A stretch of DNA of 20,655 bases from positions 1-20,655 of the IMG/VR virus record IMGVR_UViG_3300037070_003632; one strand, written 5' to 3'. Below are positions 4,419-12,242 of the stretch, in pieces; within the stretch, counting starts at the first letter, position 1; each line of letters starts with the position of its first letter. The notes under the pieces are model-generated. The model saw only the letters and a program-made list of their open reading frames with translations. It did not search any database and had not been told where the DNA came from. This stretch comes from a virus. A program made the position numbers and the translations under genes.

Positions 4419-4681
4419 TGACGGAGAGGTGGGGTGGGGCGGCTTACGCCTCACTCCCACCGATCCATCTGCCGTGTCGGTGGCCGCTGTGGCACCGGCT
4501 CTTACGACGACTGGATCTGATTGTGTGGATCTGGTGGGCGGACGGGGAACACGCGCAAGCAAGTTTTCTCTGGTTTGAGTTCGTGACCCGCAATGGGCAT
4601 TGGTTCTGCGGCTGTGGGAACGACGAACGGGTGCGGCGAAAGCGAGCGTTAAGAGCACGGATGCGCGAACGCAAACGATGA
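4418..4681 (+). CDS. Small Trp- and Arg-rich hypothetical protein
   Basis: An 87-residue ORF starting with GTG that shares one base with the preceding TAG stop. The middle is aromatic (LDLIVWIWWADG around residues 33-44), followed by HWFCGCGND and a very basic tail ending RARMRERKR. A single hydrophobic stretch of about 10-12 residues is too short and too Trp-rich for a confident membrane span. Its stop overlaps the ATG of the next gene (ATGA). Third-position G/C is less uniform than in its neighbours, so I am less sure it is a conserved protein, but the coupling on both sides favours translation. No family recognised. Confidence 0.6.
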   Translation: MTERWGGAAYASLPPIHLPCRWPLWHRLLRRLDLIVWIWWADGEHAQASFLWFEFVTRNGHWFCGCGNDERVRRKRALRARMRERKR

Positions 4682-5355
4682 AGGCCGTGATCATGGGCGG
4701 GTATCGGCACACGGTCGAGTCCCCGCGCTATCACTTCGCCAACGCGGAACTCTGGCTCCAGTCCACGAGTGCGCGGGCGTGGGATTGGGTCATTTACGAC
4801 TGGAGCCGGTGGTTCGACATTCACGACGTCGGACCTAATTCGTTCTATCCCGGCATTCGGATCATGCGGCCGGATGTCTTGGCCTGGTACCACAAGCAGG
4901 GGAGCGAGCGGCCGATCTACATGATCAGCCACTACCCCCAGATCATCGGCAGCAAGGCGTATCCGATCGAGGCGATCACGAACGAGTTCGGCACCGGGTA
5001 TTTCGGCTGTCAGTTGGACTACATGGGCGCGTTGGCGCTCCACGAAGGATTCGACCACTGGATTCTCTACGGCCTCGGACAGCCCTATACGAAAGACCGC
5101 GAGGGCGCACGAGCGCAGCACTGGTTCAAGCATCACGGCACGTTTCTCTACTGGCTCCGGCTGGCGCAATCGCGGGGCGTGAAGATCACGTTGGATACGC
5201 CGGAGTCGAACATGCTCACGCTGGACGTGATTGCGGACGAAGCGCGGTATCCCACGCCTCCGCCGAATCCCTTGCGCTACGGCTACGACATGGGCGTCGA
5301 GCAGGCGATGGCGGCGCGGATGGACGGCTATCCGTTTGGAGCGGCGGCGGGCTGA
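4678..5355 (+). CDS. Rossmann-like conserved phage protein, possibly glycan-related
   Basis: A 225-residue protein. The ATG at 4678 is chosen because it overlaps the preceding stop; a longer reading from 4600 lies inside the previous gene. It opens MKAVIMGGYRHT, a beta strand with Gly-turn typical of nucleotide-binding Rossmann folds. It has IYMISHYPQIIG (80-91), GYFGCQLDYMGALALHEG (107-124), WILYGLG (128-134) and SRGVKITLDTPESNML (165-180). The order 'strand, small-residue helix of an Ala-Leu-Ala type, LYG loop, RG-turn, strand, SxxL' is one I know from phage proteins of unknown enzymatic function that sit near sugar or surface-modifying genes. An FkbM-type methyltransferase follows with a one-base overlap. 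A sugar-transfer or nucleotide-sugar role is an inference, not a demonstrated activity. Confidence 0.65.
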   Translation: MKAVIMGGYRHTVESPRYHFANAELWLQSTSARAWDWVIYDWSRWFDIHDVGPNSFYPGIRIMRPDVLAWYHKQGSERPIYMISHYPQIIGSKAYPIEAITNEFGTGYFGCQLDYMGALALHEGFDHWILYGLGQPYTKDREGARAQHWFKHHGTFLYWLRLAQSRGVKITLDTPESNMLTLDVIADEARYPTPPPNPLRYGYDMGVEQAMAARMDGYPFGAAAG

Positions 5356-5936
5356 TGGTGTTTCCCCCGGACTTCACCTTCCCGGTGGAGAAGTGGGAGA
5401 CGGCGCAGTATGCCGCGCAGTCGATTGCGGGCCTCTCGGCGGAGCGGCGGGTGGTGGTACAGGCCGGGGGGTGTGCGGGGTTGTGGCCGGTGGCGTTGTC
5501 GAAATATTTCGCGCACGTCTACACCTTTGAGCCGGCGTTGGTGAATTTCGAGTGCTTGCAGGCCAACGTAGCCGCGTGCGCCAACATCACGGCGGTACAG
5601 GCGGCGCTGGGCGACACCTATCGGTCGGTGGGGTTGACGCGACCGAAACCCAAGGCGGGCCTCTGGCGCGTGGAGGGGGAGGGCTATATCGAAATGCTGC
5701 CCCTTGATGACCTTCTGGGCGATGTGGCGCTGGATGCCCTCGTGCTGGACGTGGAAGGGTCGGAGTTGCAGGCGTTGCGGGGGGCGGAGCGGTTGATTAC
5801 CACCCACAAGCCCTTGCTCTGGTTTGAGCATCGCACGGCGGAGGTGGACGGCTTCCTGACCGCGCACGGCTACACACCTCCCCTGCACGGACTGGGTGGT
5901 GATTGTTACAGCGTCCACACGTCACGGGCGCACTGA
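5355..5936 (+). CDS. FkbM-family SAM-dependent methyltransferase
   Basis: A 193-residue class I methyltransferase. Motif I is VVVQAGGCAGLWP (33-45), the counterpart of the Asp/Glu-x-Gly-x-Gly SAM loop, though the usual acidic residue is Gln36. The acidic residue at the end of strand 2 is E59 in TFEP. LPLDDLL (116-122) precedes VLDVEGSELQALRGAE (130-145), the signature seen across FkbM proteins, with D132, E134 and G135. FkbM enzymes usually O-methylate sugars or small molecules. The protein lies at the short end of the family, with no extra domains. Placement inside the capsid operon, one base overlapping the Rossmann-like gene, suggests modification of a glycan on the particle or the cell surface. 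The target is unknown. Confidence 0.85.
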   Translation: MVFPPDFTFPVEKWETAQYAAQSIAGLSAERRVVVQAGGCAGLWPVALSKYFAHVYTFEPALVNFECLQANVAACANITAVQAALGDTYRSVGLTRPKPKAGLWRVEGEGYIEMLPLDDLLGDVALDALVLDVEGSELQALRGAERLITTHKPLLWFEHRTAEVDGFLTAHGYTPPLHGLGGDCYSVHTSRAH

Positions 5937-6432: not shown

Positions 6433-6444
6433 AGGAGCGCATTG
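6433..6444 (+). promoter_or_regulatory. Strong ribosome site with TTG start for portal
   Basis: AGGAG at 6433-6437 is followed four bases later by TTG (6442-6444). There is no in-frame ATG nearby that would give a plausible N-terminus, so this pair fixes the portal start. Because it abuts the terminator U-tract, no promoter can lie between the two. Portal mRNA must come from read-through or from a start upstream of the hairpin. Confidence 0.75.
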
Positions 6445-8361
6445 GACGACGCGAACGATCCGTGGGGGGCGTGGCGAGGCCGCATCAAAGCCTCCCGAGC
6501 ACGCCGGGACGAACGCCTGCCGGAATGGCAGACGAACGTAGACGCACGCAAAGGCGCGCGGAGCGGCACGGACGCCGTGGATCGCCTCACCACGAACGAC
6601 CGGCGCATCATCGTCAACCAAGACTGGCCGATCACCAAGGCCAAGATTGCGCAGCTGTATTCGCAGACGCCCGAAGTCCGCCTGACGCCCCGCGATGACG
6701 CCTTCCGGCCCGCGGTGCCGGTGTTTGGCCGTGAGCTGAACGACACGATTGCGGCGGCGAGTGTCGGCACGACGATCGAAGAAGTCCTCGCGGATGTGGT
6801 CAACGCCTCCGGGATTGGCGCGGCGCTGGTGTCGTGCGAAGCGCGCACCGAAATGCGCGACGTGCCGATGGTGGACCCCGCGATGGTCCCACCGGAGTTA
6901 CAGGCGGAGATTCCGACGCAATCCGTGGAGCACACGGTGGATCGCCGGTTCCTCGCCCAGCGCATCTCGCCGGCCGACCTGCTGACCCCGGACGATTTCA
7001 CCGGCAGCGACTACGACCAGGCCCGCTGGTTGGGAGAAGACGGCCGCATGACGTGGCCGCAGTCGATGGCGGCGCTGGGGTTGACGGAAGAGCAGAAGGA
7101 GAAGGTCTGCGGCAAGGACAAGCGGGCCGGCAACAGCAGCACGTTGAACACGAGTACCGCGACGTTCAGCGATACCGATGTCGTCAACTACACCCAACTG
7201 TTCTACTGGCGGCATTACTACCACGCGGACGAAACGAACTTCAAAGCCCTCCAGCGGTTGGTGTTTGTCGAAGGCCTCGAAGAGCCCGTCATCAACGAAC
7301 CGTATCAGGCCCAGAAAAAACTCGAGGACGGGCGATTAGTCGGGGTCACGAAGAACCCGATTCGCGTCCTCACGCTGACGTACGTCTCCGACGACAGCCT
7401 GCCCCCGTCCGATTGCTCGATTGCCCGCGCCGCGATTAGTGAGCTCGAGCAGTCGCGCGATGCGATGGTGCAGCAGCGGAAGCACTCGATTCCCTTCCGG
7501 TGGGGCGACACCAACCGCATCAGCTCCAACATGCGGGCGAAGATCGACCAAGGCGAATATCAGGGGTTCATCTGGACGAACGGCCCCGGTGATCGCGCCA
7601 TTGGCGAAGTCGCCAGAGCCTCCTTCCCGCAAGAGAAGTTTGAGTTCGACAAGATCATCAAAGGCGACATCACCGAGCAGACGCAGGTCGGGACCAACCA
7701 GAACGGCGATTTTGCCTCCGGCGAACGCTCCGCCCGCGAAGCCGGGATCATCGAGAAGAACTTCCAGCGGCGAGTCGGGCAAGAACAAGACAAGGTCACG
7801 AAGTTCTTCATCGGGATTGCGGAAGTGCTGGCGGGGCATCTCGCGCTCTACGGCACCTTCGACCTCCCCGACATGCTGGGCGAGCAGCGGGAAGTCATCG
7901 CCAACGCCTTCACCTATTCGGTTAAAGCCGATTCGACGGTGCGGAAGGATGTGCAGCAGCGCATCGAAGAACTGAAAGAGTTCTACAACTTCACCGCGCA
8001 GACCGGCTATCTCAATCCCGAACCGCTGTTGCAGGAGTGGGCGGAACTGATTGATGCCCCGGATGGGGTGATCGTCCCGCCGCAACCGAAACCTCCCGAG
8101 CCCGTGAAGATTTCGGTGAGCAAGGCGGAAGACCTCCAAGACCAACTGTTTGTCGCGTTGTTGGTCCGCACCAACCAAGCCCCCAGCCCGGAAGACATGG
8201 CGGCAGCGGCGCAGATTATGGCGTCGCGGTTGGTGATTCCTGACGTGACGGCCCCCGCGCCGGAAGTGGAAGGTGGCGACGTGGAGACACCAGGCATCGC
8301 GCACCCGGAACGGGTGGAAGCGCCCAGAGTCAATAAACGCGACGAGGATGGCGGCGCATGA
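6442..8361 (+). CDS. Portal protein
   Basis: A 639-residue protein expected to form the dodecameric ring at one capsid vertex, through which DNA enters and leaves and to which the tail attaches. The N-terminal region has RLTTNDRRIIVNQDWPITKA and IAQLYSQTPEVRLTPRD (about 49-85). This is the 'native loop then helix then Tyr-x-Pro-x-Val' pattern of podoviral-type portals that bind a run of conserved helices before the wing domain. The middle includes LFYWRHYYHADE and a long helical stem, IIEKNFQRRVGQEQDKVTKF, near 437-456. The C-terminus is Pro/Glu-rich and probably disordered. Size is typical. It is downstream of the capsid rather than next to the terminase, which is unusual. Confidence 0.85.
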   Translation: MDDANDPWGAWRGRIKASRARRDERLPEWQTNVDARKGARSGTDAVDRLTTNDRRIIVNQDWPITKAKIAQLYSQTPEVRLTPRDDAFRPAVPVFGRELNDTIAAASVGTTIEEVLADVVNASGIGAALVSCEARTEMRDVPMVDPAMVPPELQAEIPTQSVEHTVDRRFLAQRISPADLLTPDDFTGSDYDQARWLGEDGRMTWPQSMAALGLTEEQKEKVCGKDKRAGNSSTLNTSTATFSDTDVVNYTQLFYWRHYYHADETNFKALQRLVFVEGLEEPVINEPYQAQKKLEDGRLVGVTKNPIRVLTLTYVSDDSLPPSDCSIARAAISELEQSRDAMVQQRKHSIPFRWGDTNRISSNMRAKIDQGEYQGFIWTNGPGDRAIGEVARASFPQEKFEFDKIIKGDITEQTQVGTNQNGDFASGERSAREAGIIEKNFQRRVGQEQDKVTKFFIGIAEVLAGHLALYGTFDLPDMLGEQREVIANAFTYSVKADSTVRKDVQQRIEELKEFYNFTAQTGYLNPEPLLQEWAELIDAPDGVIVPPQPKPPEPVKISVSKAEDLQDQLFVALLVRTNQAPSPEDMAAAAQIMASRLVIPDVTAPAPEVEGGDVETPGIAHPERVEAPRVNKRDEDGGA

Positions 8362-8699
8362 GATGTAACCGCTGTTTCAAATCGAAGGATGTCGGGGAGC
8401 ACGGGCACAACCTGTGCCCCTACGAACCACGCCGCTTCGCCCCTGTCGTCCGGCCGGATTCCATCCCGGGCGGGTTAGTGATTGAACACGGCCTCTGCAA
8501 CGCGGACGGCTCACCGCGCCGGTTTGACTCGCACTCGGAGATTCGGCAGGCGTGTGCGGTCAAAGGCCTCGTGCCGTGGGGGCACGTTTACGAAGAGTCC
8601 CGCACCAAGGATGCGCGGGTCAGAGCCGACTGGATGCAGAGCGGTGAAGCGCAGCGGGCCAAGGCGGATCGTGACGAACAGCGGCGGGCGCGTCGATGA
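8358..8699 (+). CDS. Small Cys/His protein, conserved phage type
   Basis: A 113-residue ORF beginning at an ATG that overlaps the portal stop (ATGA). The N-terminus MRCNRCF, with C3, C6, H15, H17 and C20, is a likely single zinc site. It continues DSIPGGLVIEHGLCN (about 39-53) and a SHSEIRQACAVKGLV helix, then a Lys/Arg/Asp-rich tail (KADRDEQRRARR). I associate this layout with small phage proteins encoded between portal and adaptor in environmental phages. Their function is not established. Its stop overlaps the next ATG by four bases, so it is tightly coupled within the head-tail operon. Confidence 0.75.
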   Translation: MRCNRCFKSKDVGEHGHNLCPYEPRRFAPVVRPDSIPGGLVIEHGLCNADGSPRRFDSHSEIRQACAVKGLVPWGHVYEESRTKDARVRADWMQSGEAQRAKADRDEQRRARR

Positions 8700-9940
8700 C
8701 CTTCGACCAGATTAAGACGGCGATCAAAGACTACGTGACGCTCTCCAGCACGGAGGCGGATACCCGTGTGGGGAAGGCGGTCAACCGCCACTATCGGCGG
8801 CTGACGTCCCAGTTAGGCCTTAACGCGGCGCGGTTCGTCACGCGCTCCGTGACGATGACCGAGGGCCAGCAGTACGTCATCTTCACGGAGATTGAGAAGA
8901 TCGATCGCATTCTCGACACGTCGGAGTCGGCGTCGATTCGCCAGCTGACCGAAGTCAACCTGCACGAGATTCGCACCACCCAGCCATCGACGGGTGCGCC
9001 GACGAAATGGGCACTCCGCAACACCGATGCGGATTCGGTGACGGTGCTGACGGATACCGTCCCAGCCACGGGTTCTTCGTGGGACTTGCAGGCGGACGGG
9101 TGGACGACCCTCAGCGATCTCTCTGGGAGTGACGAGCCGGTGTTCCCGGAATCGTTCCACGACATTCTCGTGTGGTCGGTGATTGCGGAAGAACTGCTGA
9201 AGAAGGAAAAGGACAAGCTCGCGCGCACCTACGAGCAGAAAGCGGCCGGGCTGCTCAGCGAACTCAAATTCCATCTGGCAGATTCCCCGACGCTCACGAC
9301 ACGACAAGCCAGTGCCCACAGCGGCATGGGGTCTGGGGGCGCGGGGAGCGGAGGCGGGACGTTAGGGGGGACCGCCTTTACGCAAACCGCGCTCCAGACG
9401 TTCGACCGGGGAGCGGGGATCGCCCCGTTTGCGGTGCAGCAGAGTGACGCCGCGAAGGTCACGAACCTCGACGCGGACAAACTGGATGGGTATAACGAAT
9501 CCGCGTTCGCCAAGCTCGCGGACAACGAGACGGTGGCCGGCACCTGGACATTCTCGGCGGATGTCTACACCGTGGCCTGGACGGACTATTCGGCCACTTC
9601 CACGGTGACGGGATGGGCGGCCACCCCCACGGTTGGGATTTTCTATAAGCGCCTCGGTCGCCTGGTCTACGTCAATTTTTCCATCTCGGGGACCAGTAAC
9701 GACACCGTGGTCACCTTCACCCTGCCCTACACCTCGGTCAACGTCTCGCCTACCAACGTCTTCGGTGGGGCGCTGACCAACGCCGCCGACAACGGCGCGA
9801 CCCTGACGGTGGCGAGCAAGGTGCGGCTCAGCGGCAACGCTTCGACCGTTTCGTGCTTTGCCAACATGGGGACAGGGGGATGGACGGGCTCAGGGACCAA
9901 GACGGTACAGGGGTCGTTCTGGTATGAGGCCGCGAGTTAG
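8696..9940 (+). CDS. Head-tail adaptor-like protein fused to a fibre-like C-terminal domain
   Basis: A 414-residue two-part protein. Residues 1-200 begin MTFDQIKTAIKDYVTLSS with KAVNRHYRRL, have a beta-rich middle, and end in helical DILVWSVIAEELLKKEKDKLARTYEQKA. This is the helix-strand-helix plan of ring proteins that dock on the portal. Residues 205-225 are a Gly/Ser linker (SGMGSGGAGSGGG at 209-221). Residues 256-286 carry NLDADKLDGYNESAFAKLADN and TVAGTWTF, a motif seen in phage tail fibres. Residues 300-414 are a Thr/Asn/Gly-rich beta domain with RLGRLVYVNFSISGTSN. The fusion would place fibre-like knobs directly on the connector. Domain boundaries are estimated by eye. The adaptor call is inferred from position and pattern. 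Confidence 0.7.
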   Translation: MTFDQIKTAIKDYVTLSSTEADTRVGKAVNRHYRRLTSQLGLNAARFVTRSVTMTEGQQYVIFTEIEKIDRILDTSESASIRQLTEVNLHEIRTTQPSTGAPTKWALRNTDADSVTVLTDTVPATGSSWDLQADGWTTLSDLSGSDEPVFPESFHDILVWSVIAEELLKKEKDKLARTYEQKAAGLLSELKFHLADSPTLTTRQASAHSGMGSGGAGSGGGTLGGTAFTQTALQTFDRGAGIAPFAVQQSDAAKVTNLDADKLDGYNESAFAKLADNETVAGTWTFSADVYTVAWTDYSATSTVTGWAATPTVGIFYKRLGRLVYVNFSISGTSNDTVVTFTLPYTSVNVSPTNVFGGALTNAADNGATLTVASKVRLSGNASTVSCFANMGTGGWTGSGTKTVQGSFWYEAAS

Positions 9941-11898
9941 TGGCGGACTTCATCCTCAACAGCTTGCGGGGTGGGATGAATAACACCGACCCGCCCCTCA
10001 GCCTGACGGACGACCAGTGCGTCTCGGCGGTCAACGTCGAGTGGGTGGATTCCATGCTGGCGGAACGCCGCAGAGGGATGGCGGCCATTGACCTCTCCGC
10101 CGCACTGGAAGCCGAGAGCGAGATTGCGTTTCTCACCAGGCATCTCCCGTCCAACACCGAAGCGGACGCGGAGCTGTGGGTGTACGCGATCACTGGTACC
10201 GCCACCGACACGCTCGCCCGCAAGACGACCAGTTGGTCTGAAATCACGATGACCGACGCGAACACGCTGACCAATGGGGCCGCCTACCGGATGCAGGCAG
10301 TGACGCTGCATGGGAAGCTCTTCGTCGCCTACCAGGACAACGTGACGTTTCGGCTGCATGTGTGGGACGGCACGTCCTTTCGTCGCGTGGGATTGATTGC
10401 GCCCTCGGCCGCCCCCACGGGGGCGAACACGGGCACGCCCGGCGTGGCGTTCACTGGGACGCGGTATTACCGCACCCGTGACGTGGTGCTGTCAGGCTCA
10501 ATCATCCTGCTTCGATCGGAACCCACCGCCGTCCTGACGTTTGCGCCGAGCGGAACGGGGACCGGCGTGGTCGTGACTAAACCATTGAACATGGGCGAAG
10601 GCGCGACCCACTGGGAACTCGAAGCGAGCACCGATAACGCGGACTTCTACCGCATCGCCCGCACGGTCGTCGGCACCACCACCGTGACGGATAGCGTGGT
10701 GTATGCGACGGGCTACGCCACCACAGGCACCCTCTCAGAGCAGATTGGTGATTACGAACTCCCGCACAGCGCGAAGTTCCTGCTGGTCGATGAGGACCGA
10801 CTGATTCTGCTCGGGCATCACAGCCTGTTGCACAACGGTGTGGCGATGGGCTCACGGATGGCGTGGACCCCCGTATTCAACGATCCCGGTGTCGGGAACG
10901 ATGAGCGGATTCCGTTGGACCCCGTGAGTTACCGCGACCTCGATACCTACGAGGGCGGGGACATCACCGGAGGCGTTGGGCCGGTCAACGGAGAGATTTG
11001 GATCTTCAAACGGTCGCACATCTACAAGGCGGTCCGGACGAACGTCCGCACGAATGCCTACGACGTGACCAACATCTCCAAGAAGCGCGGGGCCATCGAA
11101 GGCAGCATCGTGGAAGCCGTCGATCAGTTGGGTAGCCCCTGCGTCTACTTCCTCGATCCGAAGGTGGGGCCGTGCCGCGTCGGGTCCGATGGGGTGGTGC
11201 AACGCTGCGGCCGCGACATCTGGACGACGTGGAAAACGGTCAACCTGAACGCGACCAAGGTGGTCAGTCGGGTGTTGTTCTACGACAACGTGGGTCAGGT
11301 GCAGTGGCACGTCGCCACGGGGAGTTCCAACGTCCCCAATAAAGTCCTCGTGTTGCATGTCGAGCAGACCCGCGACACCCGCAAAGGCGTCCGTGGGGGC
11401 TGGGCGATTTGGGACGGGGACCGGGCCGGTGTCCTCTCGGCCTGTCTCTACTCGACGAACATCGACGCGAATGCGGCGCGCAATCTGACGCTCGTGCCGT
11501 TCGTCGGCTTAGCCGCCTCGGCCACGGTCTGTCAGACGGACACGGGGACCACGGATAACGGCACGGAGTTTACCGCGTCGATTCAGACGAAGCCGTACGC
11601 CCCCGCGACGATTCTGAACAAATTCGGGGTGATGAACGGGGCATTGTTGGCGGCGGCGGAAGCCGATGCCGTGGTGGATGTGGTCGCCACGCGGGACTTC
11701 GGGTTGGAGACGCTGACGGCCATTGAAGTGCCACTCGATGCCACCGCCTCGGAAACCTCGGTGATCAAGGCATTGGATGCGTTGACGTTCAGCGAGTTGA
11801 CCACGGTGGACTTCACCATTTCAGACAACGCCGACAACGCGGGGCGGTGGGAGATTAACCAGTTGGCCTTGCGGGAACGCCCGGAGCAGAGCAGCTAA
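9940..11898 (+). CDS. Tail nozzle / tail-tube-like structural protein (beta-rich)
   Basis: A 652-residue beta-rich protein starting with GTG that overlaps the preceding TAG by one base. The N-terminus GGMNNTDPPLSL (11-22), followed by ERRRGMAAID (42-51), matches the 'Gly-Gly-x-Asn ... native Pro ... Arg-Arg-Gly' pattern of nozzle or stabilisation proteins such as T7 gp12 and P22 gp10. Long runs of alternating strands (for example TGTGVVVTKPLN and GATHWELEAS) fit a beta-propeller or tube fold. It lies after the adaptor and before the collar protein, as expected for the distal part of a short tail. No enzymatic motif is visible. The exact name is uncertain, since only the order and N-terminal pattern support it. 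Confidence 0.7.
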   Translation: MADFILNSLRGGMNNTDPPLSLTDDQCVSAVNVEWVDSMLAERRRGMAAIDLSAALEAESEIAFLTRHLPSNTEADAELWVYAITGTATDTLARKTTSWSEITMTDANTLTNGAAYRMQAVTLHGKLFVAYQDNVTFRLHVWDGTSFRRVGLIAPSAAPTGANTGTPGVAFTGTRYYRTRDVVLSGSIILLRSEPTAVLTFAPSGTGTGVVVTKPLNMGEGATHWELEASTDNADFYRIARTVVGTTTVTDSVVYATGYATTGTLSEQIGDYELPHSAKFLLVDEDRLILLGHHSLLHNGVAMGSRMAWTPVFNDPGVGNDERIPLDPVSYRDLDTYEGGDITGGVGPVNGEIWIFKRSHIYKAVRTNVRTNAYDVTNISKKRGAIEGSIVEAVDQLGSPCVYFLDPKVGPCRVGSDGVVQRCGRDIWTTWKTVNLNATKVVSRVLFYDNVGQVQWHVATGSSNVPNKVLVLHVEQTRDTRKGVRGGWAIWDGDRAGVLSACLYSTNIDANAARNLTLVPFVGLAASATVCQTDTGTTDNGTEFTASIQTKPYAPATILNKFGVMNGALLAAAEADAVVDVVATRDFGLETLTAIEVPLDATASETSVIKALDALTFSELTTVDFTISDNADNAGRWEINQLALRERPEQSS

Positions 11899-12242
11899 TG
11901 CTGTCCCTCCGCAACCGCAACAGTCTCCCGCCAGCCGTGGCGCGTGAGTTCGACCAGTTGGTCGGACGGCTGAATGCGCTGCTGTCCGTGACGTTGGATG
12001 GGCAAGGGAACGCCCCGAGCCAACCGCCAGTGGGGTCGGTGGTGGCGTTTGGCCGCGCGGCGTCTCCGTCGTCTCGTTGGTTGGTCTGTGACGGCCGCGA
12101 AGTCGAGCGCCTGAAATACCCGCAACTCTTTGCGGTGATCGGCACCACGTTTGGGCCGGGGAACGGATCGACGACCTTCAATCTCCCCGATGGCACACCG
12201 GACGCCGCGTTAGCGGTCGTCTATCTCATTTTGGCGCAGTAG
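11898..12242 (+). CDS. Phage tail-collar domain protein
   Basis: A 114-residue protein whose ATG shares one base with the preceding TAA. Residues 1-40 are a helical lead, and residues 44-103 match the tail-collar domain. PPVGSVVAFG starts it, WLVCDGREV (61-69) is the usual 'W-x-x-C-D-G' turn, YPQLFAVIGTTFG (74-86) follows, and FNLPDGT (94-100) closes it. Collar domains occur at fibre tips and tail hubs where they help attachment. This is a minimal single-domain version, without a repetitive fibre shaft. It may be an adhesin-like tip mounted on the nozzle protein encoded just upstream. Confidence 0.88.
   Translation: MLSLRNRNSLPPAVAREFDQLVGRLNALLSVTLDGQGNAPSQPPVGSVVAFGRAASPSSRWLVCDGREVERLKYPQLFAVIGTTFGPGNGSTTFNLPDGTPDAALAVVYLILAQ

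Follow-up and report, generated by a model that had tools for sequence, protein, structure and literature searches.

A single gene in a 20,655-base stretch of DNA from an uncultured virus (hereafter, the window) encodes, with a probability that we put at roughly three in four, a podophage head-to-tail adaptor fused to a fibre, providing arms for receptor binding or surface adhesion. The gene (8696-9940, plus strand) runs from ATG to TAG as a single open frame of 414 aa and both of its neighbours overlap it, with the upstream ORF ending at 8699 and the nozzle ORF starting at 9940. This reading is carried by an adaptor fold, a linker, a fibre module and a predicted knob-like fold within one gene, and by relatives in which the extension is missing (distant relatives), its tip is swapped or, in a sister lineage, the two parts are neighbouring separate genes. 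The original prediction had placed an adaptor-like N-terminus, a Gly/Ser linker and a fibre-type C-terminus in this ORF; the layout was confirmed, with around 14 fused homologues, and the main points of that interpretation were largely supported.

The fusion gene and its neighbourhood

The features of the gene and its surroundings, with their basis, are:

6442..8361, plus strand: putative portal gene (size, position and conserved order; up to 45-65% identical at the same place in relatives)
8358..8699, plus strand: 113-aa gene between portal and adaptor (order conserved in relatives)
8696..9289, plus strand: predicted adaptor domain, residues 1-198 (AF2 model; Foldseek and VIA matches to podophage adaptors; PF24175 in relatives)
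9290..9376, plus strand: linker, residues 199-227, comprising the start of the C-terminal arm (TTRQ) and then a Gly/Ser/Ala/Thr linker (composition; pLDDT <50)
9377..9493, plus strand: conserved fibre module, residues 228-266, FTQTALQTFDRGAGIAPFAV...NLDADKLDGY (homologue alignment; stand-alone fibre proteins)
9494..9550, plus strand: short shaft-like stretch, residues 267-285 (sequence; low pLDDT in the full-length model)
9551..9937, plus strand: predicted fibre-head (knob-like) tip, residues 286-414 (profile match to fibre tips; AF2; fold comparison)
9940..11898, plus strand: nozzle-like gene, 652 aa (conserved in relatives; profile E 3e-7 to a sister nozzle-like family)
11898..12242, plus strand: 114-aa collar gene after the nozzle, with a Phage Tail Collar domain (PF07484, E 2e-18)

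The order portal, 113-aa gene, adaptor, nozzle was kept in relatives, the portal being called by position and size only. The portal gene (6442..8361) had no profile match, and nozzle and portal profiles compared with the PDB by sequence gave no match. The whole fusion protein was likewise without a match by sequence in Pfam, PHROG and the PDB. Among 50,697 phage records, its only match covered 51 residues and was to a Thermus phage distal tail fibre, and the portal, adaptor and nozzle of the window lineage had 0 matches in these records. The structural cluster also held a 251-aa ORF (4600-5355; 46-79% identical in relatives) and, between the capsid and portal genes, a 193-aa ORF (5355-5936) that was conserved in relatives and by eye resembled FkbM-type methyltransferases.

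A predicted SU10-type adaptor domain at the N-terminus

Residues 1-198 were modelled by AF2 mostly at pLDDT >90. The model has helices at residues 3-14, 19-40, 156-169 and 173-196, with a beta domain (~45-138) separating helices 2 and 3. The top solved matches of this domain were the podophage adaptors of A4, VP1, KHP30, Pa223, GP4, crAss001 and SU10. This included Foldseek matches to cyanophage A4 (E 8.7e-8), VP1 (2.9e-7) and SU10 (4.4e-5). The best seven rows of the VIA comparison had Z values of 13.2 to 12.1 over 179-197 aligned residues at an rmsd of 6.8-9.9 (SU10 7z47_A: Z 12.5, 194 residues, rmsd 9.9), and T7 gp11 was matched at Z 10.4 with an rmsd of 2.9 over 103 residues. The expectation that residues 1-200 would be adaptor-like was thereby borne out, and when monomer models of the two halves were compared separately with known folds, the N-terminal half matched adaptors and the tip matched fibre heads.

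Using the N-terminal alignment as the query, 24 related loci were retrieved. The Pfam family SU10_adaptor (PF24175) was detected in 9/18 full-length homologues (best 5.4e-17), with L031-L035 exceeding its curated cut-off. The window protein itself had no PF24175 hit, yet it aligned along the whole domain with PF24175-matching relatives. One adaptor gene per record was found in the 13 records searched, window included (in G012 as two pieces, one ORF). Judged on its model, the domain formed by residues 1-198 is an SU10-type podophage adaptor. In two relatives (L005:6001 and L014:8001), the adaptor start placed by homology was an ATC codon, with no in-frame ATG, GTG or TTG upstream.

A linker of steady length and a conserved module precede swapped tips

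The linker (residues 199-227) comprised 29 aa, of which 79% were Gly, Ser, Ala or Thr, and had an AF2 pLDDT <50. Its Gly/Ser character was as predicted and its extent slightly wider than the 205-225 first assigned. Homologue linkers (n = 12) were 25-31 aa long and 58-81% Gly/Ser/Ala/Thr. The module that follows had 19 invariant columns in an alignment of eight homologues and the consensus [YFW]TQT.L.TFDR..APFAV...NLDADKLDG. NLDADKLDGY, at residues 257-266 inside the module, is the fibre-type sequence that had been predicted within residues 256-414, and the tip at 286-414 matched fibre heads. Across the ~14 distinct fused homologues, the module kept a constant place and the tips differed.

Four more distant relatives (L031, L032, L033 and L035) had adaptors without the extension, ending 21-29 residues past the aligned domain. 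The C-terminal half is therefore not part of the adaptor fold, nor is it common to all adaptors. In other relatives, the linker led into the module and then into varied C-termini, with total lengths of 335-888 aa. This included DUF5907 repeats, which five homologues carried in their extensions, and a tip (L025) with matches to proteins annotated as tail fibres in cyanophages and pelagiphages (best 2e-7). It also included a homologue (L029/L030) with a C-terminal Peptidase_S74 and matches to tail-fibre PHROGs, the Peptidase_S74 match in L029 (E 2.3e-4) falling slightly short of the curated cut-off. This 888-aa adaptor fusion (L029:8001-10664) had two copies of the fibre module and a DUF5907 match as well as its C-terminal Peptidase_S74. 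Two adaptor fusions (L020:6920-7924 and L028:8001-9890) carried other, unrelated sequence past a Gly-rich linker, and their extensions are possibly independent acquisitions. Taken together, the extension-free relatives and the differing C-termini demonstrate that the second domain comes and goes, as had been suspected, and that it is also swapped. An estimate of 3-4 extension gain/loss changes, taken from a poorly resolved adaptor-domain phylogeny, was not used since L023, whose contig ends inside the linker, had been scored as extension-free.

The tip is predicted to resemble the heads of trimeric viral fibres

Searches with the window tip alone retrieved no relatives, and the assignment of the tip therefore depends on comparisons of profile and fold. 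Against a fibre-tip profile the window tip scored 33.0, compared to maxima of 18.6 among 200 shuffles and 18.4 among 45 slices of other window proteins. Residues 200-414 were unmodelled in the first AF2 full-length model. With an alignment of 59 rows, which were remote (14-26% identity), AF2 gave an all-beta domain for the tip, at moderate confidence only (mean pLDDT 75, pTM 0.69). Among the best solved matches of the tip model was avian reovirus sigmaC (Z 10.4, with an rmsd of 2.7 across 116 residues). The others included reovirus sigma1 (Z 9.3), adenovirus knobs (Z about 7-8), the bIL170 receptor-binding head (Z 7.6) and the Pa223 tail needle. On the tool's scale several of the scores are middling, and their weight comes from the consistent fibre-head theme. 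Lactococcal phage RBP trimers have been described as resembling both sigma1 and the head of the adenovirus fibre (PMC3893620). We predict that the window tip adopts the knob-like head fold of trimeric viral fibres. Peptidase_S74 was absent from the window protein in Pfam, which places it outside the S74 fibre/spike class. A grouping of the window tip with the post-nozzle tips of L016 and L028 aligned poorly and was dropped.

Separate adaptor and fibre genes in a sister lineage

A 44-residue module query returned 80 loci, and those examined comprised 17 adaptor fusions (14 distinct sequences) and 60 unfused proteins. In the fusions, the ORF started as an adaptor and the module lay at about residues 222-236, whilst in the unfused proteins it was mostly found at residue 24-26, preceded by a short leading stretch, e.g. 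MADIQVxNTDADLSGNTL. Stand-alone fibres with the module in the form TFxR..APFAV..NLDADKLDG were found at L150, L158, L160, L164, L192 and other loci. At many sister loci, a 221-225-aa gene was followed by either an ~115-aa gene or several small genes and then by the stand-alone fibre, with a 669-682-aa gene coming directly afterwards or a few genes on. All six of the 221-225-aa proteins tested matched SU10_adaptor (PF24175, E 4e-10 to 4e-8). The 669-682-aa family matched the window nozzle family in a profile comparison (probability 93, E 3e-7), and one of its members matched 'phage stabilization protein'. Direct profile comparison of the sister-lineage and window adaptor families was not significant (probability 1.6), so this adaptor-family link rests on both families matching PF24175.

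The sister-lineage fibres share both the module and the gene neighbourhood of the fusion (SU10-family adaptor upstream, nozzle-like gene downstream), but they are separate genes and have a start segment of ~24 aa where the window fusion has adaptor and linker. The presence of the same module in stand-alone fibres near SU10-family adaptors points to the window gene being a fusion of neighbouring tail genes. Two tail genes that elsewhere lie close together were thus joined, with the linker replacing the first 24 residues of the fibre. The original prediction had named separate genes in close relatives as evidence against it. Within the window's own clade every complete ORF was fused, and the halves were separate near-neighbour genes in the distant sister lineage. 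As fused ORFs turned up on many independent contigs, these separate genes show how the fusion came about and do not refute it.

Other receptor-binding candidates and alternative explanations

A second variable position is the gene that follows the nozzle. Most relatives share a similar N-terminal segment there (like MFGLxxRGEL..EFExLNSRLK..EHNxDGTH), and the modules of this gene are swapped between collar, knob-like tip and pectate-lyase tailspike (window 11898-12242; L032:7410-10202; L033:13660-14415). Such modules would be expected to do the work of host recognition if the extension were instead a fused neck or head decoration, akin to a collar whisker, with a role in stabilising the head-tail joint or in weak binding to surfaces, whilst other proteins recognise the host. 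We consider this unlikely. The extension does sit at the portal-proximal C-terminus, and one genome, G003, carries both the fusion and, upstream of the structural cluster, a 586-aa endosialidase-barrel-like (tailspike-like) ORF (L118:10322-12082). However, the tips turn over like receptor-binding modules and match tail-fibre tips. Furthermore, the fusion was the only large fibre-like ORF of G002 in an ORF survey, whereas the non-fused G010 had large fibre-like ORFs of 1122, 269 (laminin-G-like) and 1026 aa directly upstream of its adaptor. G002 and G003 have terminal exact direct repeats (127 and 35 bases, respectively) and are therefore probably complete genomes. The idea that the fusion works without separate fibre genes thus held for G002 and failed for G003, with its additional tailspike-like ORF. 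The window record is a fragment, and fibre genes may sit outside its 20,655 bases.

It is less probable still that the virion contains separate adaptor and fibre chains, through cleavage of the fusion after assembly or through additional internal initiation of the fibre. The linker composition is protease-accessible and L029/L030 end in Peptidase_S74, a domain that cleaves itself off; however, S74 removes itself alone, at the C-terminus, and is not seen in the window protein. The sole internal start codon near the linker is the ATG at residue 211, and no Shine-Dalgarno-like sequence lies ahead of it. The existence of both parts as separate genes in the sister lineage could also suggest that two genes were joined by a missed stop in assembly or annotation. 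The chance of this is negligible, as ~14 distinct fusions recovered from other metagenomes share this junction within a single open frame, with a linker of 25-31 aa. A sequencing-error fusion was ruled out by this recurrence in independent contigs. A genuine fusion of adaptor and receptor-binding or adhesive fibre remains our preferred reading.

Proposed working and comparison with known systems

In the adaptor-fibre fusion, the N-terminal domain would form a ring, dodecameric by analogy, that attaches beneath the portal and accepts the nozzle. Past its last helix, each subunit would continue through the flexible Gly/Ser linker into the fibre module and the knob-like head. The linker would bridge the symmetry of the ring to that of the fibre, in the simplest case with one fibre for every three adjacent subunits. 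These fibres would then act as covalently tethered arms, facing outwards from the virion at the level of the neck and adaptor, for receptor binding or surface adhesion. The fibre would emerge from the end of the adaptor C-terminal arm and, because this arm threads between portal subunits in known adaptors, it would have to exit near the portal. In SU10, the ring consists of twelve adaptor subunits whose C-terminal loop passes between those of the portal, and it is the docking site for six trimeric fibres from other genes (PMC9509320). In Pseudomonas phage DEV (Schitoviridae), the adaptor arm likewise enters between portal protomers, and five appendages are built from fifteen fibre chains (PMC10925440). 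Given the resemblance of the modelled tip to trimeric knobs, the 'up to twelve arms' originally envisaged may be four trimers. We offer only tentatively, at rather less than even odds, the fuller arrangement in which a 12-subunit ring carries four covalent trimeric fibres, linkers absorb the mismatch, stoichiometry is fixed by the ring and docked fibres are replaced.

No adaptor-fibre fusion was described in the open-licence literature searched. The SU10 gp11/PF24175 family, together with T7 gp11, P22 gp4 and the A4, VP1, KHP30 and GP4 adaptors, has the helix bundle and beta (fibre-dock-like) domain in common with the window protein, and the SU10 family also shares its position between portal and nozzle genes. 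However, the matched solved adaptor chains are about 180-260 residues long, whereas the window chain also contains a fibre. SU10 fibres are separate gp12/gp13 trimers docked on the ring (PMC9509320), in contrast to the window fibre, which is part of the adaptor chain. DEV gp83 is an adaptor with an extra surface domain, reported as a 101-aa lectin-binding-like insertion, but this insertion sits within the helix bundle, at the place where the window protein carries a beta domain of its own; the DEV adaptor has no described C-terminal linker or fibre, and its fibres are made of a separate protein, gp53 (PMC10925440). The heads of reovirus sigmaC/sigma1, adenovirus knobs and lactococcal RBPs resemble the predicted all-beta window tip (Z 10.4 to about 7) at a sequence identity of about 6-15%, but they end free-standing trimeric fibres or RBPs and not adaptors.

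The fusion yields concrete predictions of fibre number and symmetry, and the sister lineage, with its neighbouring separate genes, provides a before-and-after comparison. An annotated 'adaptor' gene could thus contain the host-range determinant, and searches for RBP genes would miss such genes. In the podophage structures compared, separate fibres dock on the ring of the adaptor or nozzle, often with mismatched symmetries. A fibre inside the ring protein, with a steady linker length and freely swapped tips, would be another route for attaching receptor-binding modules.
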